Source of the DNA: Algoriphagus lutimaris
GTDB taxonomy: Bacteria > Bacteroidota > Bacteroidia > Cytophagales > Cyclobacteriaceae
NCBI RefSeq assembly: GCF_017051705.1
Contig: NZ_JAFIDJ010000002.1
Location: 640,384 to 704,383, forward strand
Direction: 5' to 3'
Length of the DNA: 64,000 bases
The position numbers and the translations under genes are program-made. The notes beneath the pieces are model-generated. The model did no database searches, was not told where the DNA came from, and saw only the letters and a program-made list of their open reading frames with translations. This document shows, piece by piece, positions 16,909 through 52,520 of the stretch (position 1 is the stretch's first letter; every line of letters starts with the position of its first letter).

Positions 16909-17050
16909 GGGGAAAAATAAAACCGAAACTATCCTAAATCGCCAAGGAAGTCCAACCCGAAATCCTTACTTTACATTCTATACCCCTATGGACAAGGGGG
17001 ATAGCTTCGCAATAGAATAGTCTGACTTGGGTTTATACCTGAATTGTGCT
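16909..17050 (+). repeat. Cassette-leader module, copy 1 of 9
   Basis: About 142 bp starting GGGGAAAAATAAA, containing CCAAGGAAGTC, TACCCC-TGTGGACAA, CGCAATAGA-TAGTC and ACTTGGGTTTATAC, and ending at the GTT-type core (here decayed to ATTGTGC). The 3' end of every copy lies at the start of a cassette. This copy follows the amidohydrolase terminator and could be the anchor end of the array (inference). Confidence 0.85.
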
Positions 17051-17073
17051 TCAAATGGAAACCCAAATAACCA

Positions 17074-17808
17074 ATGATTAAATTCTTCAGAAAAATTAGA
17101 CAAAACTTGCTTTCAGAAGGTAAAACTGGAAAGTACTTTAAATATGCTATTGGTGAAATCATACTTGTAGTTATTGGAATTTTGATTGCACTATCAATTA
17201 ATAATTGGAACCAAAAAAGAATCAATTCCCTAAGCGAAAGCCTATTGCTAAAGGAAATTAACACTGAATTTAAATTCAATAAAAAAGAGCTGGAAAGCAC
17301 CATTAGAACTTATACTCTTATTCGAAACCAGTGTAACTATTTAAGAAAGTCATTCCCTTTAGTCCAAAATGAAATAGATAGAGACTCTTTATCAAGAGCA
17401 TTACGTCAGCTACGAAATCTTGGTTCTGCAGATCTATCGATGGGATCTATTTCAACTTTAATCAATACATCATCTTTTGAAATTATTTCAAATACAGAAC
17501 TTCGAACTTTGCTAATTCAATGGGATGACTTGATATCTGATTATTTCGAAAGAGAGAAGCAAGCAATAAATTATACCAGACATACCATAATTCCCTATTT
17601 GGCGAAAAGAATCCCACAGCCCTATATTAAAGGGTTAGATGATGACCGTGTTGATTTATCATTTTTAAGCTCAATAGAATTTGAGAATTTAATTAACGAC
17701 CGACACCTAGATGCAAATACATTGTTGAACATTGTAGAACATGAAGACGATGAAATCCGAAAAGCAATAAATAGAATAATATTTCTAAGTAACGGTAGCA
17801 CGGAATAA
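17074..17808 (+). CDS. DUF6090-type small membrane protein, copy 1
   Basis: 244 residues. The N-terminus MIKFFRKIRQ is basic, followed by 'GKYFKYAIGE' and one membrane helix (about 27-46, ILVVIGILIALSINNW), then a long helical, charged C-terminal part. This N-terminal signature recurs in six other loci of the window. Function unknown; the shape (one helix, coiled C-terminal part) suggests a membrane-anchored protein of unknown partner. The leader CTTC-(about 22 nt)-ATG right after the core is shared with the other DUF6090 cassettes. Its upstream core (TTGTGC) does not pair with its downstream core (GGCTAAC), so this cassette looks like a hybrid or a decayed one. Confidence 0.82.
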   Translation: MIKFFRKIRQNLLSEGKTGKYFKYAIGEIILVVIGILIALSINNWNQKRINSLSESLLLKEINTEFKFNKKELESTIRTYTLIRNQCNYLRKSFPLVQNEIDRDSLSRALRQLRNLGSADLSMGSISTLINTSSFEIISNTELRTLLIQWDDLISDYFEREKQAINYTRHTIIPYLAKRIPQPYIKGLDDDRVDLSFLSSIEFENLINDRHLDANTLLNIVEHEDDEIRKAINRIIFLSNGSTE

Positions 17809-17847
17809 TAAAATGAATAATTTATTTGTTCCAAATAGATAACGAAA

Positions 17848-17977
17848 GGCTAACATCGGCTACACCCCAAGGCCTGGATCTTAGTACACCTCACACCCTC
17901 AAATCCTAAAAAAACCTATCTTTAGATGAACGCTATGCAATTAATACCGGCAACGGGGCATAGCCGTAACCGGTGGC
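17848..17977 (+). other. attC-like site S1
   Basis: Core GGCTAAC (17848-17854), 3-nt spacer ATC, arm GGCTACACCCC (17858-17868), a variable stretch, arm GGGGCATAGCC (17955-17965; 9 of 11 positions pair), 5-nt spacer GTAAC, then the degraded core CGGTGGC. The 3/5-nt spacer asymmetry is the same as at the other sites. Confidence 0.65.
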
Positions 17978-17994
17978 AATAATTAAATCAAATC

Positions 17995-18813: not shown

Positions 18814-18821
18814 AACTTATT

Positions 18822-18872
18822 ACCAACAAGGTATAAAATGCATTAAAACGCATTTTATACAAAACGTAGGGA
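18822..18872. other. Compact attC-like site S2 that also forms a terminator
   Basis: Core ACCAAC (18822-18827), spacer AAG, arm GTATAAAATGC (18831-18841), 8-nt loop, arm GCATTTTATAC (18850-18860; all 11 bp pair), spacer AAAAC, core-like GTAGGGA. It sits between converging genes and should act as a bidirectional hairpin terminator as well. Confidence 0.72.
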
Positions 18873-18890
18873 TTCTCAATAATATTTTCG

Positions 18891-20841: not shown

Positions 20842-20870
20842 TCTTAGATAAACTTGATCAGACAATTTGC

Positions 20871-23033: not shown

Positions 23034-23171
23034 GGCGGAAAAAAACGGAACTATCCAATATCCCCAAGGTAGTCATAACCGAAATTCTTATTTTACATTC
23101 TATACCCCTGTGGACAATGCGGATAGTTACGCAATAGACTATTCGGACTTGGGTTTATACATGTGTTGTGC
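23034..23171 (+). repeat. Cassette-leader module, copy 2 of 9
   Basis: Same blocks as copy 1 (CCAAGGTAGTC, TACCCCTGTGGACAATGCGGATAG reduced to key blocks, CGCAATAGACTA, ACTTGGGTTTATACATGTGTT), ending in the core TGTTGTGC of the next cassette. Confidence 0.85.
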
Positions 23172-23195
23172 TTCATTAAGACTAACCGCTATCCA

Positions 23196-24002
23196 ATGAT
23201 AAAATTCTTTAGAAAAATTAGACAAAACTTGCTCATGGAAAATAAAACTGGGAAGCCTGCCTGGCCGGTAGGCAGGTATTTTAAATATGCAATCGGAGAG
23301 ATTGTTCTTGTCGTTATTGGAATCTTGATTGCTTTACAGATTAATAATTGGAACGAGCAAAGAAAAGATAAAATAAAGGAACAAGGTTTACTTAAACAAC
23401 TGCAAGAAGATTATCAATCTAATCTTTTACAATTAGAAGAAAAAATGGCGACTAGGGAAATCTTGCTTAATTCGGCAGTTCAACTTTTGAATGCTATTGA
23501 TGAACCTGTTGGTGTTGTAAGAGATTCAGTAATTAAAGATCTCGCGAATATTAGGCATGATCCGACATTCGATCCTATAAGAAATAACTTAACCAGTTCG
23601 GAGAATTTAAGATTGATTCGCAACAACGAATTGAGGCGTTTACTATCAAACTGGTCATCTGATGTAGTTGGAGTGAAAGAAATCGAAACGACTTGGAGTC
23701 AATTAGTGAATGAGCAGTATCATCCAATTATCTCAGAATTAGGTTTGGGCAGAGATATCTATAATAGTTTTGTTAACGATTCTGAACATAATTGGCTATT
23801 AGATAAGAACTCAAATTCTTTTAAATCAGAAATTGGAATTTCAAAACTAAAAACAACATTAAATGAAATATTAATAAGTAAAAAATTGGAATCTATGATT
23901 TCTGCCTCTATTGTTTTTAATAGAGGTGCAAATCTGCAATCTGAGGCATTACGCCAAAGAATCTTGGAGATTTTAGAATTAATAGCAGACGAAATAAAAT
24001 AA
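23196..24002 (+). CDS. DUF6090-type small membrane protein, copy 2, with an in-frame palindromic insertion
   Basis: 268 residues from the ATG at 23196, chosen because it aligns with MIKFFRKIRQ in the paralogues. Membrane helix at about 38-56 and a helical C-terminal part. Compared with the paralogues (N-K-T-G-K-Y-F-K-Y), seven extra residues lie between TGK and YFKYAIGE, coded by a 21-bp near-palindrome. Function unknown. Flanked by perfectly matching cores. Confidence 0.83.
   Translation: MIKFFRKIRQNLLMENKTGKPAWPVGRYFKYAIGEIVLVVIGILIALQINNWNEQRKDKIKEQGLLKQLQEDYQSNLLQLEEKMATREILLNSAVQLLNAIDEPVGVVRDSVIKDLANIRHDPTFDPIRNNLTSSENLRLIRNNELRRLLSNWSSDVVGVKEIETTWSQLVNEQYHPIISELGLGRDIYNSFVNDSEHNWLLDKNSNSFKSEIGISKLKTTLNEILISKKLESMISASIVFNRGANLQSEALRQRILEILELIADEIK
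23256..23276 (+). repeat. 21-bp near-palindrome inserted in frame
   Basis: CCTGCCT and AGGCAGG form a 7-bp stem around GGCCGGT. It adds 21 nt (7 codons) relative to all other DUF6090 copies and keeps the frame. Confidence 0.75.
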
Positions 24003-24026
24003 CGAAAGCCAGCCTTCTGCAGACAG

Positions 24027-24157
24027 GCACAACAATGGCAATAAGTAATTGCTTGTTCTCACCTACTTCTTAAAATCCCTGCGGAATTTCCAATTTGGTG
24101 TATACTGGCAAAGTTAAGTGCTAACCAACGCAACTACTCATAGCCGAGACGTTGTCT
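24027..24157 (+). other. attC-like site S3
   Basis: Core GCACAAC (24027-24033), spacer AAT, arm GGCAATAAGTAATTGC (24037-24052), variable loop, arm GCAACTACTCATAGCC (24130-24145; 13 of 16 pair), spacer GAGAC, core GTTGTCT (24151). The left core pairs with the core at the start of its own cassette (23165) and less well with the right core of the same site. Confidence 0.78.
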
Positions 24158-24182
24158 TTCATTAAAACCTCCCAATAACTTA

Positions 24183-24666
24183 TCATATAAATTTTTAGAA
24201 AAATTCGTTTTGCTCTTATCGAAAACAATAAAACTGGAAAGTATTTAAAATATGCTTTTGGAGAAATTATTCTAGTCGTGATTGGTATCCTCATCTCATT
24301 ACAAATCAATAATTGGAATGAAGCTAAAAAGCTTAACAAGGAAGAATTAATAATACTTACCCATCTGAATGAGGATTTTAAAGAAAATAAACTAATGCTT
24401 GAAGAAACTATTAATCTCGAGAGAAATGTGATTTCTCACAGCAAAGCTCTTATTAATATTTTACAAACTAAAAATGCAGATGTCAGTTCAGATTTTGTAA
24501 TCAATTGTGTTGTAAAAGGAGCCAAATCCTGATGGAAACCAGAATTTATAACAGGAACCTAGGATGCTATGTAAGGTTCTGGCAAATTGAATGCATTATC
24601 TGATGATAATTTAAAACGTTTGCTTGCGCAATTTTCTACAGAGGTATAATTGGGTTTTGAGGTTAT
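24183..24666 (+). pseudogene. Dead DUF6090 cassette, copy 3, killed by nonsense changes only
   Basis: By eye about 95% identical to the intact copy at 39555-40313 over some 480 nt without any indel, but the start is ATC instead of ATG, codon 3 is TAA, and three further codons are stops (Trp to TGA near 24531, Ser to TAA near 24571, Glu to TAA near 24646). Homology stops near 24660 and the 3' part is missing. Homology on the left begins exactly at the GTT core (24151). Confidence 0.85.
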
Positions 24667-24836: not shown

Positions 24837-25592
24837 ATGAAAAAAACTACATTTCTTTTTACTCTGATTCTTTTAAACTCCATTTATTCGTTTTCGCAAG
24901 ATTTAGGAACTAAAACACTAGAAGAGATTCGTCTAAAACAGATTGAAAACATCAAAAATCCTGAATTATGGGATATGGAACGAATGAAAGATGTTGATAT
25001 TGAACCAGAAAATGAACGTCTGCCTATCAGGTTTGGCGCTTTCCCCGTACCTCATTACAATAGCCTTTTTAGCTTTGACTATAGAGGAGGCGGAGAAGTT
25101 AATAATCGAATGGCTCGATCTTTACCAGACTATAAGATTACCGTGGAAGATAAGGAAATTGTGTTTCAAAGTTTTTGGATAGGCAACAGTGAATTATATA
25201 AAGAAGAACAACGAAATACAGCATTTTTTACTGTTCTTACAGTTATTGATACTGTTGATACTAATAATTTCGCTTTAGGTGCTTCTAATTTCATTTCAAG
25301 AAATCACCCGGATTATACTGGCCAGGGATCATTTATTACAAAAGACAACAAGGTCGAATTTGTTGCTTTTGCAACACCAGATAAAGGGAGCTATGCCATT
25401 GTGAACATGAGGCTTTTTCATCTGGAATATGGAAATATTATTTTAATCACTCCTCAAAAAGATGGTTCTTTTAGGTCTCTCCAGATAAAAGGCTCAGTAC
25501 CTCCAGCAGAAGCTAGTTTTGATTACATAAGAAGCAATGTCTTACAGAGAGAAGAAGTAATTAAGTTTTTTACTGCGGATGGAGTAATATAA
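24837..25592 (+). CDS. Secreted protein of unknown function (family with a decayed copy at 60.9 kb)
   Basis: 251 residues with a signal peptide (about 1-20, SFSQ). The start at 24837 gives the signal peptide and fits the promoter. No catalytic motif that I recognise; the middle holds RFGAFPVPHYNSLFSF and the C-terminal half is beta-rich (DNKVEFVAF, FHLEYGNIILITPQKDGSF). A frameshifted 3' copy lies at 60875-61216 directly behind an esterase that is under the same type of operator, so the protein may belong to that regulon (inference). A T2 terminator begins 9 bp after the stop. Confidence 0.7.
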   Translation: MKKTTFLFTLILLNSIYSFSQDLGTKTLEEIRLKQIENIKNPELWDMERMKDVDIEPENERLPIRFGAFPVPHYNSLFSFDYRGGGEVNNRMARSLPDYKITVEDKEIVFQSFWIGNSELYKEEQRNTAFFTVLTVIDTVDTNNFALGASNFISRNHPDYTGQGSFITKDNKVEFVAFATPDKGSYAIVNMRLFHLEYGNIILITPQKDGSFRSLQIKGSVPPAEASFDYIRSNVLQREEVIKFFTADGVI

Positions 25593-25776: not shown

Positions 25777-25919
25777 CGGGAAGAATAAATTCGAAACTAT
25801 CCATTATCGCCAAGGAAGCCATACGCTAAATTCTTATTTTACATTATAAACCCCTGTGGACAATGCGTATAGTTACGCAATAGACTAGTCGGACTTGGGT
25901 TTATACAAGTGTTAGTGGA
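25777..25919 (+). repeat. Cassette-leader module, copy 3 of 9
   Basis: Contains AATAAATTCGAAACTATCC, CCAAGGAAGCC, CCCCTGTGGACAATGCG, CGCAATAGACTAGTCGGAC and ends GGGTTTATACAAGTGTTAG. Confidence 0.85.
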
Positions 25920-26983
25920 TATAAATCAAAAAGAATATGAAAAAAATCACAACTATTATTCTCACTGCATTTTTTTCCCTTCCTGGAATTACCTATGCCC
26001 AATCCATTGCAAATGAAATTATTGCATCTGGTACAGAGTTGATAGAACTGTTTGATGGTGGAGAGGGTTTCCTCTTAGAGGGACCTTGCATGTCCCCTAG
26101 TGGTGAACTATTCTTTACCGATATTCCATTTACTATGTTTAGTGGTTTAAAAGCTGGAATTATCTGGAAATACAATCTTGAATCAAAAGAACCAACAGTA
26201 TTTCGATCACCAAGTGGAATGGCAAATGGGATGGCATTTGATGCTGATGGGAATCTAATTGTTTGTGAAGGGGCTGATTTTGGAGGTCAGAGGGTAATTA
26301 GGACTGACATGTCAACCGGCAAAAGTGAGATAATAGCAGGTCTTTACAATGGCGAACCTTTTAATGGGCCTAATGATGTGGTCATAGATGAATCTGGTCG
26401 AATATATTTTACGGATCCAAGGTATTTCGGGCATGAACCCATTGAACAAAAAGTAATGGGAGTTTACAGAATTGACAATCAGGGTAAAGTAGAACTGATC
26501 ATTGCAAATGCGAGCAATCCTAATGGGATTATCATTTCTCCAGATCAAAAATCGCTATACATCGCAAATTTTGCAGTTCCCGGAAATTATGAATTTCCAA
26601 CTGCTAATTTCACAGGGGTAAGGCAAGTGAGTGAAGGGGAAATTTTAGCATATGACTTATTACAGGATGGTTCAGTCAAGTTTCGCAAAGAACTTATTAA
26701 CTTAGGGAACTTAGGACCTGATGGAATGACCATTGACATGGAAGAGAACTTGTATATTGCTCATGGTAACAAGGTTGGTATTTATAATAATCAAGGAGAG
26801 AAATTATATGAAATTGAAATCCCTAAAAGTCCGGTCTCCAATTTAACTTTTGGAAGAGAAAAGTATAGTAAAACGCTATTTATTACTGCTGGAAAAAGTT
26901 TGTTTTCAATTCAAACGCAAAAAGAAGGATATCATATTCCATTTAATAAATAAATGGCCGTGATAAATTGAACATCCACTAAC
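25911..26983 (+). mobile_element. Gene cassette with matching end cores (GTGTTAGTGGAT / ATCCACTAACAC)
   Basis: The 12-mer at 25909-25920 is the exact reverse complement of the 12-mer at 26974-26985. One gene (SMP-30 family) lies between. Behind the right core come ACC and GGCTATGCGATAATGCC, the usual start of a left stem arm, but the matching right arm is missing because other sequence follows. Confidence 0.85.
25937..26953 (+). CDS. Secreted SMP-30/gluconolactonase-family protein
   Basis: 338 residues with a signal peptide (about 1-22, TYAQS). Beta-propeller typical of the SMP-30/gluconolactonase/LRE family: LEGPCMSPSGELFFTDIP, FNGPNDVVIDESGRIYFTDPRY, NPNGIIISPDQKSLYIANF, LGPDGMTIDMEENLYIAHG. 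The Glu of LLEGP, the Asn of GPNDV and the Asp of GPDGM are at the places of the metal ligands. Likely hydrolyses a lactone or ester in the periplasm; substrate unknown. Single gene in a cassette with 12-bp matched ends. Confidence 0.88.
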   Translation: MKKITTIILTAFFSLPGITYAQSIANEIIASGTELIELFDGGEGFLLEGPCMSPSGELFFTDIPFTMFSGLKAGIIWKYNLESKEPTVFRSPSGMANGMAFDADGNLIVCEGADFGGQRVIRTDMSTGKSEIIAGLYNGEPFNGPNDVVIDESGRIYFTDPRYFGHEPIEQKVMGVYRIDNQGKVELIIANASNPNGIIISPDQKSLYIANFAVPGNYEFPTANFTGVRQVSEGEILAYDLLQDGSVKFRKELINLGNLGPDGMTIDMEENLYIAHGNKVGIYNNQGEKLYEIEIPKSPVSNLTFGREKYSKTLFITAGKSLFSIQTQKEGYHIPFNK

Positions 26984-30831: not shown

Positions 30832-30976
30832 AGGGGATGAAAATAAATTCCGAACCACCCAATATCTCCAAGGAAGTCATCTACAAAATTCTTAATTTGA
30901 TATTAAATACCCCTGTGGAAAATGCGGATATATACGCAATAGACTTTTCAGACTTGGGTTGATACAAGTGTTAGCC
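30832..30976 (+). repeat. Cassette-leader module, copy 4 of 9
   Basis: GGGGATGAAAATAAATTCCG, CCAAGGAAGTCATCTAC, TACCCCTGTGGAAAATGCGG, CGCAATAGAC, ACTTGGGTTGATACAAGTGTTAG. It ends at the core GTTAGCC (30970-30976). Confidence 0.85.
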
Positions 30977-32040: not shown

Positions 32041-32180
32041 AAAAGAAGAAACTGGAACCATCCAATATCCCCAAGGAAGTCATCTACAAAATTCTTAATT
32101 TGATACTAAATACCCCTGCGGATAACGAGGATATATATGCAATAGACTAGTCAGACTTGAATTTATACAAGTGTTGGCAA
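32041..32180 (+). repeat. Cassette-leader module, copy 5 of 9
   Basis: CCATCCAATATCCCCAAGGA, CATCTACAAAATTCTTAATT, TACCCCTGCGGATAACGAGG, GCAATAGACTAGTCAGACTT, TTTATACAAGTGTTGGCAA; core GTTGGCAA at 32173-32180. Confidence 0.85.
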
Positions 32181-36469: not shown

Positions 36470-36542
36470 CAAAACCCCTGTAGACAATACGAATATATAC
36501 GCAGTAGACTAGTCGGACTTGGGTTTATACAAGTGTTAGCGG
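36470..36542 (+). repeat. Cassette-leader module, copy 6 of 9 (3' half only)
   Basis: Only the right half remains: ACCCCTGTAGACAATACGAA, CGCAGTAGACTAGTCGGACT, GGGTTTATACAAGTGTTAG; core GTTAGCGG at 36535-36542. Neither T1 nor T2 precedes it. Confidence 0.82.
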
Positions 36543-37987: not shown

Positions 37988-38020
37988 AAGCGTAGATTGC
38001 ATCTACGCTTTTCTATTTTC
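37988..38020 (+). terminator. Terminator T2, copy
   Basis: AAGCGTAGAT (37988-37997) pairs with ATCTACGCTT (38001-38010); TTCTATTTTC follows. Confidence 0.85.
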
Positions 38021-38151
38021 AGGAATTTATAATTCCACTAGCCAAGCAATATTCAAACAGAAAATCAGATAAGCATCTCGAATATACAAGCCGAAAAAAG
38101 GCTCACTATTTCCATAGCCTCCTCATTACGATTTGGTTTTTTTGCATTAAG

Positions 38152-38296
38152 GAGGATGAAAATAAATTCGGAACCATCCTATATCACCAAGGAAGTCATC
38201 TACAAAATTCTTAATTTGATACTAAATACCCCTGTGGATAATCCGGATATATACGCAATAGACTAGTCAGACTTGAGTTTTTACAAGTGTTGGCAA
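38152..38296 (+). repeat. Cassette-leader module, copy 7 of 9
   Basis: GGAGGATGAAAATAAATTCG, CACCAAGGAAGTCATCTAC, TACCCCTGTGGATAATCCGG, CGCAATAGACTAGTCAGACT, GAGTTTTTACAAGTGTTGGC. Nearly the same as copy 4, including the 120 bp before it. Confidence 0.85.
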
Positions 38297-39407
38297 CCAT
38301 AAAAAGGAATGAAATTACTTGCATTTTCAATATTATTCATATTTGTATTTATCCTAAATGGACAATCTCAGGTTCAATCAAAGGATATGCAAATTGAAGT
38401 GAATGAGGTCGATAATTCCATGTTCACTGCTGATAAATTCTGGAGAGGTGCAGATGGTGCAGCTTCAATTGATTTAGAGAATGGAAAAATTCTATGGTTA
38501 TTCAGTGATACATTTATTGACCCTCAAGGAACAGGCAAGCGAAGTGATTCAAAGATGATCAACAATAGTATTGCTATTCAAGAAGGTTATTCTTTAGATA
38601 AAGGAAAAATTTCTTTTTACCATAAAGGAAGACAAGGAAAACCAAAATCATTCTTTGAGTTGCCCGGTAAGACATGGTTTTGGACTGGACATGGTATTGT
38701 TGCGAATGATAAACTTATCATATTCTTATTTGAAGAAAAGAGCACACATACAGGAATTGGATTTGAAGCAATAGGATGGTATATAGGTTTAATTGACAAT
38801 CCATTTGAAAACCCTCTTAATTGGAATATAAAGTATATCAAGGGATCAGATACTTTTGGAGTTATTGCTGGATCTTCCGCTATTCTAAAAGATAAAGAAT
38901 TTATATATGCCTATGGTGTCACAGAACCTTCTTCACATGAAGTCTACCTTTTGAGATTCCCAATTGATAAAATAGTTGAAGGCGATATCTCTGGGTTAGA
39001 GTGGTGGAATGAAGATAGTTGGACCACAAGAAAGGAGAAAAACCCAGCTCCTTCCCCACTTTTTATTGGACAGACTGAATTTTCTGTTCATTACCAGGAA
39101 AATCTTCATCAATATGTTCAAGTTCAAACATATGGCTATGGTGCTGCTTCTATAGGATATAGATTAGCCGAACGACCTGAAGGCCCTTGGTCACAGCCTG
39201 TAATTTTTTACCAGACACAATTGAAAAGTCCGGAGGAATTTGTCTATTCAGCAAATGCACATCCAGAGATAACAAATGATGGAATTTTGGTTACTTACAA
39301 TGTTAATAATGGGAATTTTAATGAGTTGATGAAAAATGAAAACATATATTTCCCAAAATTCATAAGTGTTAAAATTTCAAAATGAAACATTAATTACTAT
39401 TGCCAAC
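38289..39407 (+). mobile_element. Gene cassette with matching end cores (TGTTGGCAA / TTGCCAACA)
   Basis: TGTTGGCAA at 38288-38296 is the exact reverse complement of TTGCCAACA at 39400-39408. One gene lies between, and its start is only 13 bp from the left core. Confidence 0.83.
38309..39385 (+). CDS. Secreted propeller-like protein resembling DUF4185/DUF5005
   Basis: 358 residues with a signal peptide (about 1-21, GQSQ). DKFWRGADGAASIDLENGKILWLFSDTF is the characteristic start of DUF4185/DUF5005-type five-bladed propellers related to glycosidase folds; WFWTGHGIV, VIAGSSAILKD and YSANAHPEI follow as further blade motifs. Probably binds or cleaves a carbohydrate, but no catalytic assignment can be made. 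Single gene of a cassette with 9-bp matched ends; followed by site S5. Confidence 0.72.
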   Translation: MKLLAFSILFIFVFILNGQSQVQSKDMQIEVNEVDNSMFTADKFWRGADGAASIDLENGKILWLFSDTFIDPQGTGKRSDSKMINNSIAIQEGYSLDKGKISFYHKGRQGKPKSFFELPGKTWFWTGHGIVANDKLIIFLFEEKSTHTGIGFEAIGWYIGLIDNPFENPLNWNIKYIKGSDTFGVIAGSSAILKDKEFIYAYGVTEPSSHEVYLLRFPIDKIVEGDISGLEWWNEDSWTTRKEKNPAPSPLFIGQTEFSVHYQENLHQYVQVQTYGYGAASIGYRLAERPEGPWSQPVIFYQTQLKSPEEFVYSANAHPEITNDGILVTYNVNNGNFNELMKNENIYFPKFISVKISK

Positions 39408-39530
39408 AATGTATAAAAATAATAGCCGAGACAGTAGTAACTACAAGAGTTGAAGCCAGCTTCAACTTTCTTGTAACTTGACTGGAAAGTGCCACGCAGT
39501 CGGCTACTATTCTTATACTTACCGTTGTCC
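39400..39530 (+). other. attC-like site S5
   Basis: Core GCCAAC (to 39407), spacer AAT, arm GTATAAAAATAATAGCCGA (39411-39429), a loop containing a second hairpin AGTTGAAGC-CA-GCTTCAACT, arm TCGGCTACTATTCTTATAC (39500-39518; 17 of 19 pair), spacer TTACC, core GTTGTCC (39524-39530). The two cores of the site do not match each other fully; the left matches the start of its own cassette at 38289. Confidence 0.82.
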
Positions 39531-39554
39531 TTCATTATGACCACCCAATAACTT

Positions 39555-40313
39555 ATGATAAAATTTTTTAGAAAAATTCGTTTCGGCCTTATCGAAAACA
39601 ATAAAACTGGAAAGTATTTAAAATATGCTTTTGGAGAAATTATTCTAGTCGTGATTGGTATCCTCATCGCATTACAAATCAATAATTGGAATGAAGCTAA
39701 TAAGCTTAACAAGGAAGAATTAAAAATACTTACCCAACTGAATGAGGATTTTAAAGAAAATAAACTAAGGCTTGAAGAAACTATTAATCTCGAGAAAAAT
39801 GTGATTTCTCATAGCAAAGCTCTTATTAATATTTTACAAACTAAAAATACAAATGTCAGTTCGGATTCTGTAATCAATTGTGTTGTAAAAGGTGCCAAAT
39901 CCTGGTGGAGAACAGAATTTATAACAGGAACCTACGATGCTATGTCAGGGTCTGGCAAATTGAATGCATTAACTAATGATAATTTAAAACGTTTGCTTGC
40001 GCAATTTTCTACAGAGGTAGAATTGGGTTTTGAGGATCATAATGAGTCGATTAATTATCTTATTGAATTAAATAAAATCTCAGCGAAGCTGACTCCCTCA
40101 TTTATCATGGATGACCAACTCGTCCAGCTAGGAATGACTAAAAACCAAGAGCAAATTACTGAATCAATAAATGAACTTATAAATAATGAGGTTGTATTAG
40201 GATTAGTATTAAGCAAAACTTGGCTAGAAATAAATCGATTGGACTATTTATTTAAAATTCAAGATTACAATAATGACATTCTCAACATTATTGATTCAGA
40301 ATTAAAAAAATGA
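39555..40313 (+). CDS. DUF6090-type small membrane protein, copy 6
   Basis: 252 residues. MIKFFRKIRFGLIENNKTGKYL, one membrane helix (about 26-44, ILVVIGILIALQINNW), charged coiled C-terminal part. It is the intact twin of the dead copy at 24183-24666 (about 95% nucleotide identity by eye), with homology starting exactly at the GTT core at 39524. Leader CTTCATTATGACC shared with the other copies. Function unknown. Confidence 0.85.
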   Translation: MIKFFRKIRFGLIENNKTGKYLKYAFGEIILVVIGILIALQINNWNEANKLNKEELKILTQLNEDFKENKLRLEETINLEKNVISHSKALINILQTKNTNVSSDSVINCVVKGAKSWWRTEFITGTYDAMSGSGKLNALTNDNLKRLLAQFSTEVELGFEDHNESINYLIELNKISAKLTPSFIMDDQLVQLGMTKNQEQITESINELINNEVVLGLVLSKTWLEINRLDYLFKIQDYNNDILNIIDSELKK

Positions 40314-40318
40314 CGGAA

Positions 40319-40464
40319 GTACAGCAATGGCTATAAGTAATTGCTTGTTTTCTCCTCCTTATAAATCCCGCTAGCTATCGGGAACCACGGATTTTTAAGT
40401 TTGGCGTGTCATTGCGAAGTTAACTGCTAAACCATGCAAATACTTATAACCGTAACCACTAGCC
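40319..40464 (+). other. attC-like site S6
   Basis: Degenerate core GTACAGC (to 40325), spacer AAT, arm GGCTATAAGTAATTGC (40329-40344), variable loop with a TCCCG/CGGGA hairpin, arm GCAAATACTTATAACC (40436-40451; 14 of 16 pair), spacer GTAAC, degenerate core CACTAGCC. The left arm is nearly the same as in site S3. Confidence 0.72.
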
Positions 40465-40489
40465 TCAACTACTAGAAAACTAAAATTAC

Positions 40490-41392
40490 ATGAAACAACA
40501 ACGACTGTTTATATTTATAAATTTATTGATATTATTTTTTCATACTTCGCTATTTGCTCAGTCTCAAAAAGATCAACAGAATATATTTGAAATAGGGGTT
40601 TCTGATAGTTTGTATTCAAAAACATTAGATGAATATCGAAAGATCTGGGTGCATGTACCTGAAAGTGCAATGGATAACAAAAACAAAAAATATCCAGTTC
40701 TTTTCGTTTTAGATTGAGATTCATAACTACCTAAAATTAGCGCTATTATTCAACAACTTGAAAGGATTAAATTGCCGGAAATGATTGTCATAGGAGTTGA
40801 TAATAATTCTAATAGACTAAGAGATTTAACCCCAACAAAACCTCATAATCCAAGTCCGGAGTCTCCTGTTCCTGGTGGTGGATAAAAATTCACGGAGTTT
40901 ATTGAAAATGAATTAATTCCCTATTTAGATAGTAAATACCCCACTACATCTTATCGTACCCTTTGGGGACATTCTATTGGCGGTTTACTTGTATTGAATG
41001 TACTGTTTTTACATTCTGATACATTTGACAACTACATTGCTATTGACCCCAGTCTATGGAGAGGTGGTGATTATGATTATTTAAAAGAGTATTCGGCTTA
41101 CTTAAATAACAGGCAGTTTCACGATAAATCACTTTTTATAGGAGTAGCTAATACGATGTCTCGATTAAATTTAAATCTTGATACGGTGTCTGTTTTAAAA
41201 GATAGATCAAGGGCAACAGAACATATTCGTCATATTTTGACCTTCTCAAAAATAGCTAATTCAAACAAGCAAAATAAATTGAATTTTGCTTGGAAATATT
41301 ATGATAATGAGGACCATAACAGTGTTGTCTAAATATCCACCTATGACGCCTTATATTATCTCTTTAGTTGGTATCCAGAAAATGAAAAATGA
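40490..41392 (+). pseudogene. Secreted esterase pseudogene with four in-frame stops and no frameshift
   Basis: One frame reads through a signal peptide, YPVLFVLD, a conserved esterase D-type core (WGHSIGGLLVLNVL with nucleophile Ser; ELIPYLDSKYPTTSYRTL) and the C-terminal half, interrupted by TGA (40715), TAA (40724), TAA (40883) and TAA (41330). Not a single indel is needed. Related to alpha/beta hydrolases of the putative esterase family. Left core CTAGCCTC and right core GAAGCTAAC pair at 7 of 9 positions. Confidence 0.85.
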
Positions 41393-41431
41393 TTTAATCA
41401 AAGTAAATGGCCTAACCCACAATAAAATACT

Positions 41432-43542: not shown

Positions 43543-43689
43543 TTGGGAGAAAAAATAAATCCAAAACTATCCAATATCCCCAAGGAAGTCCTATCTGAAA
43601 TTCTTATTTTACATCTAATACCCCTGTGGAAAAGGTGGGTTGCTTCGCAATAGACTAGTCGAACTTGGGTTTATACAAGTGTTATCACC
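43543..43689 (+). repeat. Cassette-leader module, copy 8 of 9
   Basis: GGGAGAAAAAATAAATCC, CCAATATCCCCAAGGAAGTC, TACCCCTGTGGAAAAGG, CGCAATAGACTAGTCGAACT, GGGTTTATACAAGTGTTATC. Confidence 0.85.
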
Positions 43690-45975
43690 AATACATACTA
43701 TGAAGAAACTCAATATTTTTTTACTAATAATTATACTTACAAGTCCACTAGCTTTTAGTCAAACTGGAAATGAACGCGTTTTCTTTTCTTCGTATAGACC
43801 ACAGGGTTGGGATATTTGGATTGCTAACGGCCAAACAGAGGAAATTAATCAGGTGACTACCAACGAAGCTTTGGAATATAACCCAGTAATCAGCCCGGAT
43901 GGAAAATGGATTGTCTTTACCTCTGAGCGATTTGGCAATCCTAAAATTTTCATCAAATCTCTAGAAGAAAAAGGTGAAGCTCGTCTATTTATCAACCATG
44001 AATCCTCCATGCAGGATCAGGCCGCAATATCTCCCGACAATAATTGGATTGTATTTACTTCAACACATGAAGGACAATCGGATATTTACCGGCTTCCCTT
44101 CCAGCCTAGCGATACATTAAATCTTGATGCTGCAATAAATCTTACTCATGACAAAGGCGGTGATTTCAGGCCGTCATTTTCACCTGATGGATTGCAAATC
44201 GCATTTTCAAGTGACCGCAACCATTCCATTAAATCGCATCCTTCTTTTGTGTTTGCTATGAGCCGAACTGCCGATATCTATAGTATGGATATCGATGGGG
44301 AGAATCTAAAAAGACTAACGAAAAACGATCATTGGGATGGAAGCCCTTGCTATTCAAATGACGGAAAGCAGATATTTTTCTATAGCGGTCCGAGAAATTC
44401 GTACCGAATCTATTCGATGGATCTCGATGGCATGAATCAGGAAGCCATTTCACCTGAGGGCATCAATGCCATTTCACCTTCAGTTAAAAATGATTCGACT
44501 TTAGTCTTTACTACATTCCAAGGAAGAGCATTTCGGCTAATGAGTTTAAATCTCATTTCGATGGAAGTGGATTCGTTATTTAAATCTACCTCAAATTTCT
44601 TAGGGGCAAAACTCCAACAAAATGGGATGATGACTTTTTACGGAGGAGAGCCTCCTATGGAAACGGCTTATAATTTAGGTGGATTTGAGGGTGATTTGTT
44701 AGTTAAAGGATCCCCATTTTCTAAAGATTTGAACCAAAAAGTAGTCGATATGTATGCTGTTAGGAGAGCATTTGCCGCTCCTCCAAATCCTAATAATAGC
44801 ACACTAATTTTTGATAACACCGATATAAGAGGAGTGGAAGATGCACTTACTCCGTGGGCTTATAGCCTACTAACTATCGTAGTTTTATTAATCCTCTTTA
44901 TTGGGTTAGGCAATCGAAACCTTAAAGTAGCTAAAGCAAAAACCCGTTCATTCCTTCTTTTCAATATCATTTCGGTTTTAATTATCGCTTTACTGGTATT
45001 CGAATTGTATTATTTCTTTATCGATCAACTTGCACCAATCAATACGATGCGAGTGTATCTTGGATTAGTAGCTGTATTCTTGGCCATCTGCATTGGTTTT
45101 GTTCATTATAAGAGAACACAAATGCTATCCGAACAATTAAGAACTATTTTAATCTTAAATTTTGTGAGCACACTTTTTCTGATTGCTATACTCCCTCTGC
45201 TGATCCGGATCCCAATTCAATTCTATGAGGTGAATTATAAAACGAATGAAGTAGACCCAATTTATTCTTTTGTCAAGCCATCAAATTATAATCCTTTAAA
45301 TGGGATGGTTATTGATACTAAATTTAATCCGTCAGGAGACGAACTCGTATATTCTGTGGGTAATTTCAGAGGAGGACCATTAAATCAGGGAGATGTCTTC
45401 ACTCTAAACCTAAACTCATCAAAAACTACCAGGCTTACATCATCTGATTTCAATGATGGCTTTGGCGACATAACCTCTGATAAATCAAAAATCGTTTTTA
45501 GAAGTGGTAGAAGTGGTTTTTTCGACATTTACTTACAAGAAGGAGAAATGGTTAAAAACATCACCTCAGATGAACACAGAGACAATTTCCCAATTATCTC
45601 TCCTCAAGGGGATAAGATCGCTTTCTGCTCAGATCGACTAGGAACTGACATAGAAGGAAAAGTGAAAACAATGGATATCTTCCTTACTGTTTTAAATGTT
45701 GATGGAACTTGGAGCGATGCAAAGAGAATGACATTTGATGGTGGTCAGGATGCACATCCACATTTTTCTCCTGATGGTGATTGGCTCATTTACGCTTCAG
45801 AAGAAGGAGGTATTAATGACGAAGAACCACTGGTACAACCAGTGATTTTTGGGCCTCAGATGTATGGAGAAATCTTTGCCATTCATATCAGCTCAGGTAA
45901 AAAAATCAGACTTACCCATAATAAATGGGAAGATGGAGCACCACTTTGGACAAAAGGATTAAAATAGGTGATAAC
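43681..45975 (+). mobile_element. Gene cassette with matching end cores (AAGTGTTATCACC / GGTGATAACACTT)
   Basis: The 13-mer at 43677-43689 is the exact reverse complement of the 13-mer at 45967-45979; the right copy overlaps the last base of the stop codon. This is the longest perfect pair in the window. Confidence 0.87.
43700..45967 (+). CDS. Membrane protein with N- and C-terminal PD40/TolB-like propeller halves
   Basis: 755 residues from ATG 43700, chosen for its signal peptide (about 1-21) and its place just after the core. Residues 25-330 hold PD40 blades (VISPDGKWIVFTSERFGN, FSPDGLQIAFSSDRN), residues about 400-535 contain four membrane helices, and residues about 545-755 hold further blades (FNPSGDELVYSV, FSPDGDWLIYASEEGG). 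So two propeller halves face the periplasm, joined by a four-helix membrane bundle. Probably a sensor or scaffold; no catalytic motif. The right core overlaps its stop codon. Confidence 0.82.
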   Translation: MKKLNIFLLIIILTSPLAFSQTGNERVFFSSYRPQGWDIWIANGQTEEINQVTTNEALEYNPVISPDGKWIVFTSERFGNPKIFIKSLEEKGEARLFINHESSMQDQAAISPDNNWIVFTSTHEGQSDIYRLPFQPSDTLNLDAAINLTHDKGGDFRPSFSPDGLQIAFSSDRNHSIKSHPSFVFAMSRTADIYSMDIDGENLKRLTKNDHWDGSPCYSNDGKQIFFYSGPRNSYRIYSMDLDGMNQEAISPEGINAISPSVKNDSTLVFTTFQGRAFRLMSLNLISMEVDSLFKSTSNFLGAKLQQNGMMTFYGGEPPMETAYNLGGFEGDLLVKGSPFSKDLNQKVVDMYAVRRAFAAPPNPNNSTLIFDNTDIRGVEDALTPWAYSLLTIVVLLILFIGLGNRNLKVAKAKTRSFLLFNIISVLIIALLVFELYYFFIDQLAPINTMRVYLGLVAVFLAICIGFVHYKRTQMLSEQLRTILILNFVSTLFLIAILPLLIRIPIQFYEVNYKTNEVDPIYSFVKPSNYNPLNGMVIDTKFNPSGDELVYSVGNFRGGPLNQGDVFTLNLNSSKTTRLTSSDFNDGFGDITSDKSKIVFRSGRSGFFDIYLQEGEMVKNITSDEHRDNFPIISPQGDKIAFCSDRLGTDIEGKVKTMDIFLTVLNVDGTWSDAKRMTFDGGQDAHPHFSPDGDWLIYASEEGGINDEEPLVQPVIFGPQMYGEIFAIHISSGKKIRLTHNKWEDGAPLWTKGLK

Positions 45976-48327: not shown

Positions 48328-49632
48328 GTTATCAGAAAGGCTTCAATAGAACCGATCACCCAATGAACAGGATCACACCTTTAACAATCATTATATTACT
48401 GGCTTTCTGCTCTTGTCAAGCTCCTTCAGGATCAACTAAGAATCAAGACTTATCTAATGTGCGTGACTCGCTAACAACCGAGCTACAGAGAATCTACGAA
48501 CAGGGTTTCATAAATGGCTTTTCGGTTTCAATAGTAAACAAATCAGGTTCTATGTACCAAAATGGATTCGGATATGCTAACAAGAATCCTGAAATAGATT
48601 TCACAGAAAACACTATAATAAATATTGGATCAATATCTAAATCCCTAGTCGGTTTATCATTGATGAAAGCTCAAGAACTAGGCTTGTTATCACTCGATGA
48701 TCCAATTAATGATCATTTACCTTTTACAGTTGAAAATCCGCACTTTCCGACCGAAACCATCACTATTCGTCAACTAGCAAATCATACATCCACAATTATT
48801 GATACAGAGTATTTTGAGAGAACCTGCTATGTAATGATTGCTGAACCCAATACCACAGATATTTACCCAATTGAAGTTCCATACTTCTTTAACGATCCAA
48901 AAGACACAATCTCACTTGCTAACTACATAGAAAGCATGCTAAGAAAAGGGGCCAATGCTTATTCAAAAACAGCCTTCTTAGAAGTAAAACCAGGTGAGAA
49001 ATACCAATACTCCAACACTGGCGCAGGTCTTGCTGCGCTGATCATTGAGATAGCTTCAGAACAATCTTTTGCCGAATTTTCCACAAAAAATATCCTTAAA
49101 CCATTAAAAATGGAGTCTTCCGGATGGAAACGAGATGACCTAGAAGAAAATCGAATCTCTAAAAATTATGCAACAACTGACACTGTGTATGCAGATTATC
49201 ATTTAATCAACTACCCAGATGGAGGCTTGCTGACTTCGGCGGCCGATTTAAGTAAATTATTAGTGGAACTGATCAAAGGATACGACGGAGAAGGATCTCT
49301 TTTAACCTCAGAAAGTTTTGAAACTTTGTTTGCGAAAGACATAGCAGAAGACCTTTATTGGAATCTTGGAGAGGATGTAATTCCTGTGATTAACACGCGA
49401 TTGGATAAAGGTATTTTCATGGGACTTGCTCCTAAAAACACCATTGGCCATTCAGGAGGCGATCCTGGAGTTGTTTCATTTATGTTCTTCAATTCTGAGA
49501 CAGGAATTGGTAGGATACTTTTGATCAACATGAGCATTGATAATCCGAGCCAAGGGGTATTTACTGAACTTTTTGATGTTTGGAATAAACTTGAAGCATA
49601 TCAAGAGAGATTGATCAATGCCAGCTGATAAC
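48328..49632 (+). mobile_element. Gene cassette with matching end cores (CGTTATCAG / CTGATAACG)
   Basis: CGTTATCAG at 48327-48335 is the exact reverse complement of CTGATAACG at 49625-49633, which overlaps the stop codon. Outside the cores, TTTAGTG-AGAGC precedes the left core and GGA-CACTAA follows the right one, again a 5-nt and a 3-nt spacer next to pairing arms. This site family differs from the leader-module family. Confidence 0.83.
48363..49628 (+). CDS. Lipoprotein serine hydrolase (class C beta-lactamase/DD-peptidase fold)
   Basis: 421 residues. Lipobox LAFCSC (Cys17 or Cys19). The three signature elements of the penicillin-binding/class C fold are present: Ser90-x-x-Lys93 (NIGSISKSLVG), Tyr216-Ser-Asn (YQYSNTGAG) and His363-Ser-Gly (GHSGGDPG). 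Likely a periplasmic serine peptidase or esterase; true beta-lactamase activity cannot be claimed. Single gene in a cassette with 9-bp matched cores. Confidence 0.9.
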   Translation: MNRITPLTIIILLAFCSCQAPSGSTKNQDLSNVRDSLTTELQRIYEQGFINGFSVSIVNKSGSMYQNGFGYANKNPEIDFTENTIINIGSISKSLVGLSLMKAQELGLLSLDDPINDHLPFTVENPHFPTETITIRQLANHTSTIIDTEYFERTCYVMIAEPNTTDIYPIEVPYFFNDPKDTISLANYIESMLRKGANAYSKTAFLEVKPGEKYQYSNTGAGLAALIIEIASEQSFAEFSTKNILKPLKMESSGWKRDDLEENRISKNYATTDTVYADYHLINYPDGGLLTSAADLSKLLVELIKGYDGEGSLLTSESFETLFAKDIAEDLYWNLGEDVIPVINTRLDKGIFMGLAPKNTIGHSGGDPGVVSFMFFNSETGIGRILLINMSIDNPSQGVFTELFDVWNKLEAYQERLINAS

Positions 49633-49756
49633 GGACACTAAGCTCAATCGGCTCACTTAGTTTATTTGCAAAGGGCGTTTAGATCGGATGCTTTTGATAT
49701 ATTTAAAACACTAAGCCGACAAAGCTTAATTTTATGTGAACCTCTATGTTAAAACC
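49625..49756 (+). other. attC-like site S8
   Basis: Core CTGATAAC (49625-49632), spacer GGA, arm CACTAAGCTCAATCGGCT (49636-49653), variable stretch, arm AGCCGACAAAGCTTA (49714-49728; about 12 of 15 pair), and a right core GTTAAAACC (49749) that is farther from the arm than at other sites. Confidence 0.58.
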
Positions 49757-49812
49757 CTACTTATCCAGTACCATCGTCAAATTTTAGTAGGAATTACTAA
49801 AAGCAAACAAAT

Positions 49813-50253: not shown

Positions 50254-50313
50254 CATTATTGGATACCGAAAAGTCATGATAATCATAAAATTTAAAAACA
50301 AGGCGAATAATCT

Positions 50314-51015
50314 ATGAGTGTAATTAACGAACAAAAGCAATTGATTAAAACCGCAAGAACAACTGGCCTGTGGTATTTAATGATGGCCATTTCAGGAATT
50401 TTAGGATTTATGGTCTTTCATTCTCAACTATTTGTGCCGGGTAATCCCGAACAAACACTAACGAATTTAATAGAATTAGAATCTACTGCCAGAATTAGGT
50501 TACTCTTAGAGTTTGCTATTGTCATATCTCAGGCACTTACCGCAGTTTGGTTTTTCAAATTATTCAAAGAAAACTTTGAGTGGGAAGCTTGGACTCTAGG
50601 AATATGGGGAATGGTGAATGCTCTAGTCATTATGATCAGTGCAATTTCAATCGCTTCCGCAATAGGTATTGCAAATTCTGACATCAGTGCCATGAAAGAC
50701 AAAGTTGTACTAATTCAGGGCTTTCAAACTGTAATTTCAAATGCTTGGGGAATTGGAGGTCTTTTCTTTGGGCTTTGGCTTTTTCCTATGGGATACATAG
50801 TAATCAAATCTAAAAGAATGCCTGTCTGGTTAGGGAGAGTTATTATTTTAGGGGGAATTGGCTATCTAATTACCACCGTTATCCGATACACAGGAATTGA
50901 TTTTGGGTTCAATAGATTTCTTATCCTACCCGCAACTATTGGAGAATTTTGGATGATCGGTTATTTACTGATTTTTGGGATACGGCCTAAAGAGGACGAA
51001 ACAAGACAAAATTAA
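50314..51015 (+). CDS. DUF4386-type membrane protein
   Basis: 233 residues with about six membrane helices. The N-terminus (ARTTGLWYLMMAISGILG), the long periplasmic loop after helix 1 and the end (FWMIGYLLIFGIRP) agree with DUF4386 proteins. Function unknown. Second gene of a probable pair with 49813-50253; followed by a T2 terminator 74 bp downstream. Confidence 0.82.
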   Translation: MSVINEQKQLIKTARTTGLWYLMMAISGILGFMVFHSQLFVPGNPEQTLTNLIELESTARIRLLLEFAIVISQALTAVWFFKLFKENFEWEAWTLGIWGMVNALVIMISAISIASAIGIANSDISAMKDKVVLIQGFQTVISNAWGIGGLFFGLWLFPMGYIVIKSKRMPVWLGRVIILGGIGYLITTVIRYTGIDFGFNRFLILPATIGEFWMIGYLLIFGIRPKEDETRQN

Positions 51016-51088
51016 GTGCTCTCTCATCAAACAAAACCAGCATTGATCAATGATAAAAATATTTGGATAAATTCTTTTGATCCCCTCA

Positions 51089-51136
51089 AAGCGTAGACCA
51101 CCATAGTTATCGGGTACATCTACGCTTTTCTATTTT
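51089..51136 (+). terminator. Terminator T2, copy
   Basis: AAGCGTAGA (51089-51097) pairs with TCTACGCTT (51119-51127); TTCTATTTTTT follows. The next 100 bp resemble the linker seen after the other T2 copies, but the leader module proper is lost (51240-51476), apart from a trace TTTATACCACC before the DUF6090 gene. Confidence 0.8.
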
Positions 51137-51476
51137 TTGGAATTTGCAATTCCTATAGTATAAACCATTTCACAGGAGAAAATCAGCAATAGCAAATCCG
51201 TTATACCGGTCAAAAAAAGGCTCACTATTTACATATCCCAATTTTGGAGGCCGAGAAAATTTAGAATTGGTGATATCATGGATTTGAAGAAGCGTTGAAT
51301 ATCGTCTCAAACCTTTTAAGTTAAAAGCCGGGAAACTCGAAAAAAGGGATTATATTCCTTTTAGACAACATTCCTAAGTCCCAAAGACTTAACCCATTTA
51401 GCCAGTCAAAAAAACCGGATAAACACCTTTATACCACCACTAAAATTTGTGGTTCCTTTCGACCAACCAATAAGCA

Positions 51477-52232
51477 ATGATAAATTTCTTTAGAAAAATA
51501 CGCCAAGACCTGATAGAGAAAAACAAAATGGGAAAATATTTGAAATATGCTTTGGGAGAAATAACCCTAGTGGTGATCGGGATATTGATTGCATTAGGAA
51601 TTAATAACTGGAATGAAAAAGAAAATAATATAAATCAAGCGAATAAACATTTAGAAACAATTCGCCTAAACCTAAAAGATGATATAGTACAAGCAGAAAA
51701 ACTACTGGCTGAAACGCAAACCACTGTTGACTATTCAAATATCTTTTTAGACCAATTCAAGACACTAAAACCAATTGATAGAAATATTCAGATGTATATT
51801 ATCTATCTGATGTTCGAACGAAATATTGAAGTTAATGATAGCGGGTTAACGGCACTATTAAATTCGAATAGTATGTCATTTGTAGATGAAGATTTACAAG
51901 TCAAAATATTCAATTATTACAGGCATATCGAACAATTAAAAAGTAGAGAAATAAATGCCAATTCAGAAATTAAAACAATGTATGAGCCCTATGTGAAAGA
52001 AAATTTTTATTGGATTTACAACAAAACAAATCCTTGGCACAGGCAAGCTGATGTGTATAAAAATGACCCAAGGCCTATAGAAAATATTGACGGAAAATTA
52101 AAAAATGTAATAGAAGATAAGAGATTTGAAATAATGGTGAATCACAGGAGATACCAAACATTAATATTATCTGATTTCTATATTCAAACTATTGAACTAG
52201 CTAAGGAAATAATTTCCGAGATTAAAAAATAG
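51477..52232 (+). CDS. DUF6090-type small membrane protein, copy 7
   Basis: 251 residues. MINFFRKIRQDLIEKNKMGKYLKYALGE, one membrane helix (about 26-44, ITLVVIGILIALGINNW), helical charged C-terminal part. Leader TCGACCAACCAATAAGCA is a version of the shared DUF6090 leader, but the GTT core is decayed (TTTGTGGTTCC). The 288 bp after it hold no gene, only a weak core-like GCTCAAC. Function unknown. Confidence 0.82.
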   Translation: MINFFRKIRQDLIEKNKMGKYLKYALGEITLVVIGILIALGINNWNEKENNINQANKHLETIRLNLKDDIVQAEKLLAETQTTVDYSNIFLDQFKTLKPIDRNIQMYIIYLMFERNIEVNDSGLTALLNSNSMSFVDEDLQVKIFNYYRHIEQLKSREINANSEIKTMYEPYVKENFYWIYNKTNPWHRQADVYKNDPRPIENIDGKLKNVIEDKRFEIMVNHRRYQTLILSDFYIQTIELAKEIISEIKK

Positions 52233-52520
52233 CGAATGCTCAACAGCGAGTAAAAATAATTTCACGTCAGTTTCAATTGGAAATCCTGAGCATCTCCTTA
52301 CAACTTTTTACCGGTTGCTAACTTTAAGGCAGAAGCTGGAATCCATCCCAAAACCCCTGAAAACCAGCAGGCTAAACCATCCACCACAACCCATTCAACC
52401 TTAAGTTGTAACGATTATTCCTCGAATTGATTGAAAGAAAGTTGGAAAGAGAAAATAAAGTTAGATTAAGATTATATCCTTATCCAAAAGAGGGCGAAAG
52501 ACTGTTTCGATAAATGGAGC

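Follow-up and report, generated by a model that had tools for sequence, protein, structure and literature searches.

The window analysed here, a stretch of 64,000 nucleotides of Algoriphagus lutimaris (contig NZ_JAFIDJ010000002.1, positions 640,384 to 704,383 of the forward strand), sits on contig C8 of a 4.7-Mb genome and in all likelihood carries an old, partly decayed gene-cassette cluster of an integron-like system common in Bacteroidia. Together with a platform on another contig, C1, where a tyrosine recombinase gene directly precedes a fresh array, it would form a system whose recombinase is sister to the integron integrase IntI and lacks the additional domain. This reading draws on the architecture of the arrays, their linkage to the recombinase, the signature of the attC-like sites, the sharing of cassettes with breakpoints at GTT, and a phylogeny with few outgroups, all of them features of sequence. 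The system appears to work like an integron and to be related to it, yet it fails two tested hallmarks, the additional domain of the integrase and the bulged base of the attC site. The original prediction, made from the letters of the window, had described an integron-like cassette array without an integrase, and that reading of the window is supported by the results described below.

Linkage of cassette arrays to a tyrosine recombinase

The integron-integrase profile gives no match in the window, in agreement with the earlier claim that no tyrosine recombinase is encoded there. The cognate recombinase lies on contig C1, where the best match of the genome to this profile is a 453-amino-acid tyrosine recombinase (C1:1668675-1670036) directly before the fresh array. 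No gene of the genome reaches the integron-integrase cut-off, and the recombinase scores 219.8 bits against TIGR02249 (cut-off 265), with model positions 185-238 missing. In the array that follows it (L031), genes are bracketed by GTTAGCAAC, GTTGTGGGC and GTTAGCCTC and their reverse complements, with hairpin-forming spacers between them. A remnant of a broken second recombinase copy is located about 4 kb upstream of the intact one (L030:14708-14929, corresponding to C1:1664708-1664929).

A scan of an 84,980-species collection gave 226 relatives of this recombinase, the nearest named ones belonging to Algoriphagus (up to 72% identity), and the best 80 loci of the 226 relatives were kept. Core pairs were scored gene by gene as the longest exact reverse-complement match between a GTT-start upstream and an AAC-end downstream, and the null combined the upstream region of one gene with the downstream region of another. 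The search for GTT/AAC pairs in related genomes, advised along with the original prediction, revealed a strong excess downstream of the recombinase, where 93 of 344 genes have pairs of at least 9 bp (null 2.3%), as against 2 of 585 genes upstream (null 0.6%); control loci have occasional pairs of 9-11 bp. The orientation of the cassettes is also nearly uniform, with 106 of 108 on the strand of the recombinase.

Moreover, a scanner for attC-like sites was applied, which seeks a stem after AACA and before GTT[AG]; a locus was counted for a given side if 2 kb or more was available there. Downstream of the recombinase the scanner detects 121 sites, at 35 of 43 loci (347,029 bp), whereas the 672,674 bp upstream, from 74 loci, contain none. 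The scanner was tuned while viewing training sites, mismatch polarity was not built into it, and both transition types were scored alike. Twenty later loci were hand-picked from matches to the family profile, most of them on long contigs. They have no 1-kb block at 90% identity in common with the first 80, although such a block is shared within each of the pairs L181/L182 and L186/L187. These loci contain 40 sites in 226,696 bp downstream (12 of the 20) versus none in 114,471 bp upstream, and pairs of at least 9 bp occur at 22 of 200 genes downstream (null 1.8%) and at 6 of 106 upstream (null 1.0%). L186-L188, a set of short recombinase paralogues (three in one genome), account for five of those six upstream pairs; their arrays are perhaps on the opposite side, as in a subgroup with a reversed arrangement.

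Signature of the attC-like sites

The cores of the family read GTT[AG]NNNNN(N), with A or G at position 4 in 96 of 100, A after AAC in 97 of 100, and C before GTT in 86 of 100. The core of IntI-type integron sites is GTTRRRY, which fits 3 of the 100 family cores. That the cores break this rule, as stated for the window, is true but not diagnostic, since only 15 of 61 pairs beside genuine IntI genes of the phylum conform to it (5' side, 8 of 50; 3' side, 7 of 11), and GTTRRRY was ruled out as a discriminator by this comparison. In the IntI-linked arrays L211-L228, from Bacteroidota outside the class of the window, cores mostly start with GTTA and are often off GTTRRRY; in L211, L216 and L218 the pairs are on the 3' side of intI.

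The sites of the family carry a fixed mismatch in the stem. Of the core-defined sites, 34 of 35 have A in the left arm opposite C in the right arm at 15/16 from AAC, as do 39 of 40 of the later sites, versus 1 of 28 IntI sites. A site was counted if at least 12 of its arm positions were aligned and its arm score was not low (35 of 41, 40 of 40 and 28 of 28 kept, respectively), and the IntI sites come from 9 of 18 fetched IntI loci, those with several pairs. Among 158 distinct sites (55 loci) the mismatch is present in 142, and among 64 sequence clusters in 51. The classical bulge, seen as an additional base of the left arm, is found in 3 of 35 and 1 of 40 family sites versus 27 of 28 IntI sites, and an extra base in the right arm in 2 of 35, 6 of 40 and 1 of 28, respectively. 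When a gap-friendly alignment is used, exactly one extra base in the left arm with none in the right occurs in 2 of 36 and 3 of 40 family sites and in 11 of 28 IntI sites. The extrahelical base expected from classical attC sites is mostly absent in the family, and the fixed A.C mismatch is found instead.

An A·C opposition on the top strand is a T·G on the bottom strand and makes the bottom-strand stem the more stable one, which is the case in 29 of 35 and 33 of 40 family sites, by a mean of about -2.1 kcal/mol; in IntI sites the mean strand difference is -0.2 kcal/mol and the bottom strand is more stable in 10 of 28. In attC sites, strand choice has been attributed primarily to the first bulged (extrahelical) base, according to the available part of PMC2727003. 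A putative attI, consisting of an AT-rich palindrome with C/GTTR a few bases on, follows many of the recombinase genes, and by a strict count a palindrome arm of at least 7 with GTTR within 15 bp is present at 21 of 71 loci, versus 2 of 71 control segments.

The cassette cluster of the window

The five GTT…AAC core pairs of the original prediction are all exact and lie where they had been placed; the core lengths given for them are those of the GTT cores plus 1 to 4 bases before GTT, and these bases match too. The cassettes and sites of the window are the following, all on the plus strand:

23165..24033, plus strand: cassette body with a DUF6090-like gene, named by similarity to the other copies in the window; start GTTGTGC at 23165-23171 and R'' GCACAAC at 24027-24033, an exact 7-bp pair (8 bp with the preceding T).

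24031..24153, plus strand: decayed attC-like hairpin, from AAC at 24031-24033 to GTT at 24151-24153, with the A.C mismatch at stem position 15 and 14 of 19 pairs by the wobble scanner.

24151..24662, plus strand: pseudogene-like copy of a duplicated cassette, delimited by self-BLAST and boundary sequences.

25911..26983, plus strand: SMP-30/gluconolactonase-like cassette (Pfam SGL) with cores GTTAGTGGAT at 25911 and ATCCACTAAC at 26974-26983, exact over 10 bp (12 bp with flanking bases).

38289..39407, plus strand: DUF4185 cassette with cores GTTGGCAA at 38289 and TTGCCAAC at 39400-39407, an exact 8-bp pair; a homologue at 69%, starting at the core, exists in two genomes.

39405..39526, plus strand: attC-like site, the best preserved of the window, with A.C mismatches at positions 10 (read by eye) and 15, a scanner score of 16.9 and 17 of 19 by the wobble scanner.

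39524..40331, plus strand: second copy of the duplicated DUF6090 cassette, with core GTTGTCC, followed by degraded attC-like sequence without a clear AAC core; the right edge is approximate.

40460..41402, plus strand: decayed cassette, similar over 944 bp to the C1 array cassette L031:17395-18333.

43681..45975, plus strand: cassette-like unit with a PD40 beta-propeller gene (Pfam), cores GTTATCACC at 43681 and GGTGATAAC at 45967-45975, exact over 9 bp (13 bp with flanking bases).

48328..49632, plus strand: cassette-like unit with a serine-hydrolase gene (PF00144 fold, Pfam), cores GTTATCAG at 48328 and CTGATAAC at 49625-49632, exact over 8 bp (9 bp with the preceding C); it departs from the rule of A after AAC.

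37990..38291, plus strand: example copy of a non-coding repeat of about 300 bp, ending at a cassette start core.

A site model that includes the mismatch recognises two credible plus-strand sites in the window (24031-24153 and 39405-39526) and a doubtful third, and no site on its minus strand. The array is decayed, with two hairpin sites recognised with confidence, and the intact set of nine or more cassettes once envisaged is not what the window holds. The imperfect pairs proposed around four further genes hold in part: the 40490 gene sits in a cassette with a decayed start, and those at 17995, 32240 and 36599 were not confirmed. The description of the genes as mostly of one strand needs qualification, several genes of the interval being on the minus strand. 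Pfam assigns ten window genes to gluconolactonase-like, DUF6090 (three), DUF805, ceramidase-like, DUF4185, PD40 propeller, PF00144 serine hydrolase and DUF6326 families.

A CALIN is a cluster of at least two attC sites without an integrase, as given in the available text of PMC9024848, and two or more attC sites with no nearby integrase are present in the window when judged by the site model of this system. The choice offered at the outset, between a divergent array of CALIN type and a separate system, is answered partly on each side, the window being an integrase-less array of a distinct integron-like system. On 215 kb of this genome outside the window (11 stretches), the same site model gives no plus-strand and three minus-strand sites, of which the one in L040 looks real. 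Single attC-like sites with the mismatch at position 15 occur elsewhere in the genome, at L041:757-870 and L040:8330-8227 (minus strand). One of the two window matches of the strict scanner at a score of at least 11, 24939-25242, lies inside a coding region and was judged a chance match. The window is without an Rfam match at the gathering threshold and without a tRNA.

The remainder of the array is decayed or interrupted by the repeat of about 300 bp, whose non-coding copies (about 140-300 bp) lie at 16913-17038, 23046-23167, 25781-25917, 30842-30974, 32043-32175, 36472-36539, 37990-38291, 43551-43684 and 55895-55980. Repeat ends coincide with the start core of several window cassettes (near 23167, 25917, 30974, 32175, 36539 and 43684). 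Full-length copies are confined to this genome among the 148 searched, and the first 50 bp are also present in five others.

Evidence for movement of cassettes

One cassette is shared across orders, with breaks at GTT. At 86% identity, Algoriphagus chordae (L048) has it, and so, in two copies, does a Flavobacteriales chromosome (L117). In the comparison of L048 with one L117 copy, similarity starts exactly at GTTGGCGTGC, and with the other copy it starts 13 bp earlier, where similar attC ends stand before the cassette in the two sequences compared. Between the two L117 copies, gene and attC form a shared unit, and divergence sets in at the GTT on either side of it. In the window, 24150-24662 repeats 39523-40035 at 94% from (C)GTTGTC, after two different attC sequences, and the integrase-linked array of this genome contains a homologue (82%) of the cassette at 40460, with homology from the core onward (ACTAGCCTC in the window and GTTAGCCTC in L031).

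Regarding the sites themselves, 24 genomes among the 147 others in the family sample have a homologue, at 71-91%, of the attC body at 39405-39526, and in 21 of the 24 it is almost complete. Where these loci were inspected, the resemblance does not extend beyond AAC...GTT, and the cores are different. Upstream, 5 of 8 such loci have a cassette start that matches R'' over 9-10 bp; two of these five starts belong to one cassette present in two genomes. L048:16680-16780 and L117:15505-15660 carry the same cassette gene with different attC bodies, joined at the AAC of R''; this hints at an exchange of attC and may bear on how cassettes acquire their attC. A comparison of L053 with L054 for gain or loss of a cassette revealed an indel of about 2.2 kb between shared blocks, with edges not at clear GTT cores, and was left unused as evidence.

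Homologous attC bodies with differing cores, together with the same gene on different attC bodies in L048 and L117, would be expected if the hairpins stayed put and only the gene bodies between GTT and AAC moved. This explanation is very improbable, because what the two L117 copies have in common is the gene together with its attC, with differences beyond both GTT points, so that the moving unit includes the attC.

The recombinase and its relationship to IntI

The region that corresponds to the additional domain comprises 19 amino acids in the recombinase versus 57 in IntI (2A3V), and alignment indicates that the domain is absent. This domain, near patch III, is described as defining for integron integrases in the accessible part of PMC9668308, and one genome survey, to judge from the portion of PMC2426708 at hand, chose its integrases by the additional domain or patch; searches of this kind, of which that survey would be one, would be expected to miss the family. 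R304, K329, H398, R401 and H424 are invariant in 46 members, and Y433 is present in at least 90%. The best structural match of the recombinase is VchIntIA bound to attC, and a C-terminal SPLDxL-like end is common to the family and IntI. The N-terminus of the family mostly consists of HARP-like units, usually one to three, with a weak match to HARP, sought as PF07443 or the SMARCAL1 HARP structure, and fold searches of this domain gave middling matches, among the matches listed. A 290-amino-acid member, L105:9983-10852, lacks the HARP-like N-terminal domain and has two core pairs downstream all the same. Of 64 loci that extend 300 bp or more past the recombinase, 4 have an SSB gene directly after it (L055:11381-11728, L061:11649-12014, L064 from 11639 and L067:11385-11747; Pfam SSB matched all three that were tested), as would suit a single-stranded substrate.

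In a tree with four Xer outgroups only, the family and IntI form a clade (96.1/99) apart from XerA, XerC and XerD, with support of 93.2/92 for the family and 100/100 for IntI. On these few outgroups the recombinase family is placed as the sister lineage of IntI, and since the recombinase groups with IntI, shared ancestry is favoured over pure convergence. It could still be thought that an Xer-type recombinase of other origin evolved cassette capture independently of IntI, given that the family has no additional domain, another N-terminal domain and another strand signal, that the score with the archaeal XerA profile NF040815 is close to that with the integron profile (210.9 versus 219.8 bits), and that XerD/XerC profiles match too. 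Against such an origin stand the grouping with IntI, on which the sparse outgroups leave some doubt, and the shared SPLDxL-like end. Independent convergence, which the original prediction had allowed for as a separate system, is unlikely.

The family, detected by a profile of 46 members at E up to 1e-70, is present in 129 of 247 Bacteroidia genomes, a count of recombinases and not of arrays, whereas IntI above the cut-off is present in 1 of 247 in a draw with the same settings. Across a sample of 296 genomes from the whole phylum, 84 have IntI, one of the 84 being listed as of the same class, so that the distributions of the two systems in the phylum are nearly complementary. The available text on IntegronFinder 2.0 (PMC9024848) reports complete integrons in Chlorobi and Ignavibacteriae and, for Bacteroidetes, one, in Salinibacter ruber. 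The family may explain why integrons have seemed nearly absent from Bacteroidetes.

The attC-like anatomy, the single-gene, same-strand cassettes and the cassette-specific cores are all integron features, and IntI arrays of the same phylum resemble those of the family at the core; the cassettes could consequently be seen as ordinary IntI cassettes, left as CALINs after the loss of IntI, beside a tyrosine recombinase unrelated to their movement. Nevertheless, IntI is nearly absent from the Bacteroidia in which the family abounds, the sites are different in kind, mostly without the bulged base and with a fixed A.C at 15/16, and the arrays adjoin this recombinase, nearly always on one side. A classical integron that has lost its integrase is, on this evidence, quite improbable.

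Two results weigh against the window and the C1 platform being an integron-like system with a recombinase sister to IntI. First, an earlier re-rooted tree gave 52 at the family node, the few outgroups leaving doubt about this placement. Second, the excess of core pairs in the window is modest: 4 of 38 called genes have pairs of at least 8 bp (null 2.0%, binomial P 0.007) and 2 of 38 have pairs of at least 9 bp (null 0.5%, binomial P 0.016), so that the statistics of the window taken alone are suggestive only. This modest excess, at P of about 0.01, and the occasional 9-11 bp pairs of control loci are also what would be seen if the pairs were chance matches, terminators or palindromic repeats around ordinary genes. 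However, the excess is strong downstream of the cognate recombinase in other genomes, and the one-sided enrichment, the conserved anatomy of the sites, the duplication of a cassette and the sharing of another across orders with breaks at GTT make this explanation extremely unlikely.

Proposed working of the system

The integron-like system that is favoured here would operate from the platform on contig C1, with the tyrosine recombinase gene, then the putative attI, and then a co-directional array of mostly single-gene cassettes. Each cassette circle would carry one hairpin-forming attC-like site, composed of R'' ending in AAC, a stem-loop, and R' starting with GTT. The bottom strand would fold in the cell, the recombinase would cut and rejoin it next to the GTT in R', and the circle would be joined to attI or to another attC, with shuffling between attC sites. 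Cutting at GTT and joining of the circle would leave the start of a cassette and its R'' as cassette-specific reverse complements. The recombinase would be expected to recombine attI x attC and attC x attC, and of this the sequences show breakpoints at GTT. The fixed mismatch, about 15 nt from R'', may choose the strand and is perhaps read by the HARP-like N-terminal domain.

A broader reading can be put forward tentatively, as somewhat more doubtful than probable. Integrons would then comprise two sister classes, the second of them with its recombinase family in about half of the sampled Bacteroidia, without the additional domain, with recognition of folded single-stranded sites largely by HARP-like (mismatch- or fork-reading) N-terminal domains and strand choice through a fixed T.G wobble in place of the bulge, overlooked by surveys that rely on the additional domain, and a platform for the pick-up of tet(X3) before ISCR2. 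Its probability is lowered because L105, without the N-terminal domain, has core pairs downstream. Should a sister system lack both hallmarks and yet retain cassettes, hairpins and strand asymmetry, the origin of integrons would become open to test, in terms of ancestral parts and of another way of picking the strand.

Comparison with known systems

No description of this system was found by title and abstract start in the open-licence literature outside bioRxiv, among the matches listed. A relative of the recombinase is present beside a resistance gene. On Acinetobacter plasmids, the xerD next to tet(X3) belongs to the family but is truncated at its 5' end, with 70% identity over 225 amino acids to the recombinase of this genome:

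L239:4052-6230 (NZ_CP041297.1), also L240 and L241: truncated xerD/TnpF and tet(X3).

The tet(X3)-linked fragment occurs in 51 plasmid records, 50 of them from Acinetobacter. An attI-like palindrome with GTT lies just before tet(X3), after xerD, and an AAC with left-arm-like sequence lies after tet(X3); the flanking cores are not complementary, with a longest GTT match of 5 bp. A search of 395 Bacteroidia genomes did not find the donor of the xerD fragment, its nearest DNA relatives (69-71%) being in 3 genomes. The spread of the ISCR2-xerD-tet(X3)-res module is attributed to ISCR2 in the available part of PMC8635130, and the module differs from the system described here in its 5'-truncated gene and its location on plasmids of another phylum. 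The arrangement is consistent with tet(X3) having been captured beside such a recombinase before it spread with ISCR2, and the membership of this xerD in the family hints at the way in which a resistance gene whose source is considered to lie in Bacteroidota may first have been captured.

Among classified tyrosine recombinases, the integron-like subgroup of simple tyrosine recombinases comes close by description, and the accessible text of PMC8138268 states that the insertion is not fully conserved in it; cassette arrays, the attC signature and a HARP-like domain are not described in that part of the source. With XerC/XerD and archaeal XerA, the family has in common the catalytic core, the overall fold and profile matches, and it differs from them in its adjacent cassette arrays, its IntI-like C-terminus, its extra N-terminal domain and its separate clade.

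IntI integrons offer a close parallel. In both systems a tyrosine recombinase stands beside an array of mostly single-gene, same-strand cassettes, the sites run from R'' with AAC through a stem-loop to GTT and R', the start of a cassette is complementary to its own R'', and integrase-less arrays occur elsewhere. The family differs from IntI integrons in its recombinase, which has no additional domain and mostly has a HARP-like N-terminal region, and in its array, which is 3' of the gene and co-directional, whereas the IntI pairs of the phylum are mostly 5' (50 versus 11). Moreover, its sites are mostly without a bulged base and carry the fixed A.C/T.G mismatch at 15/16, and its putative attI consists of a palindrome just before GTT.

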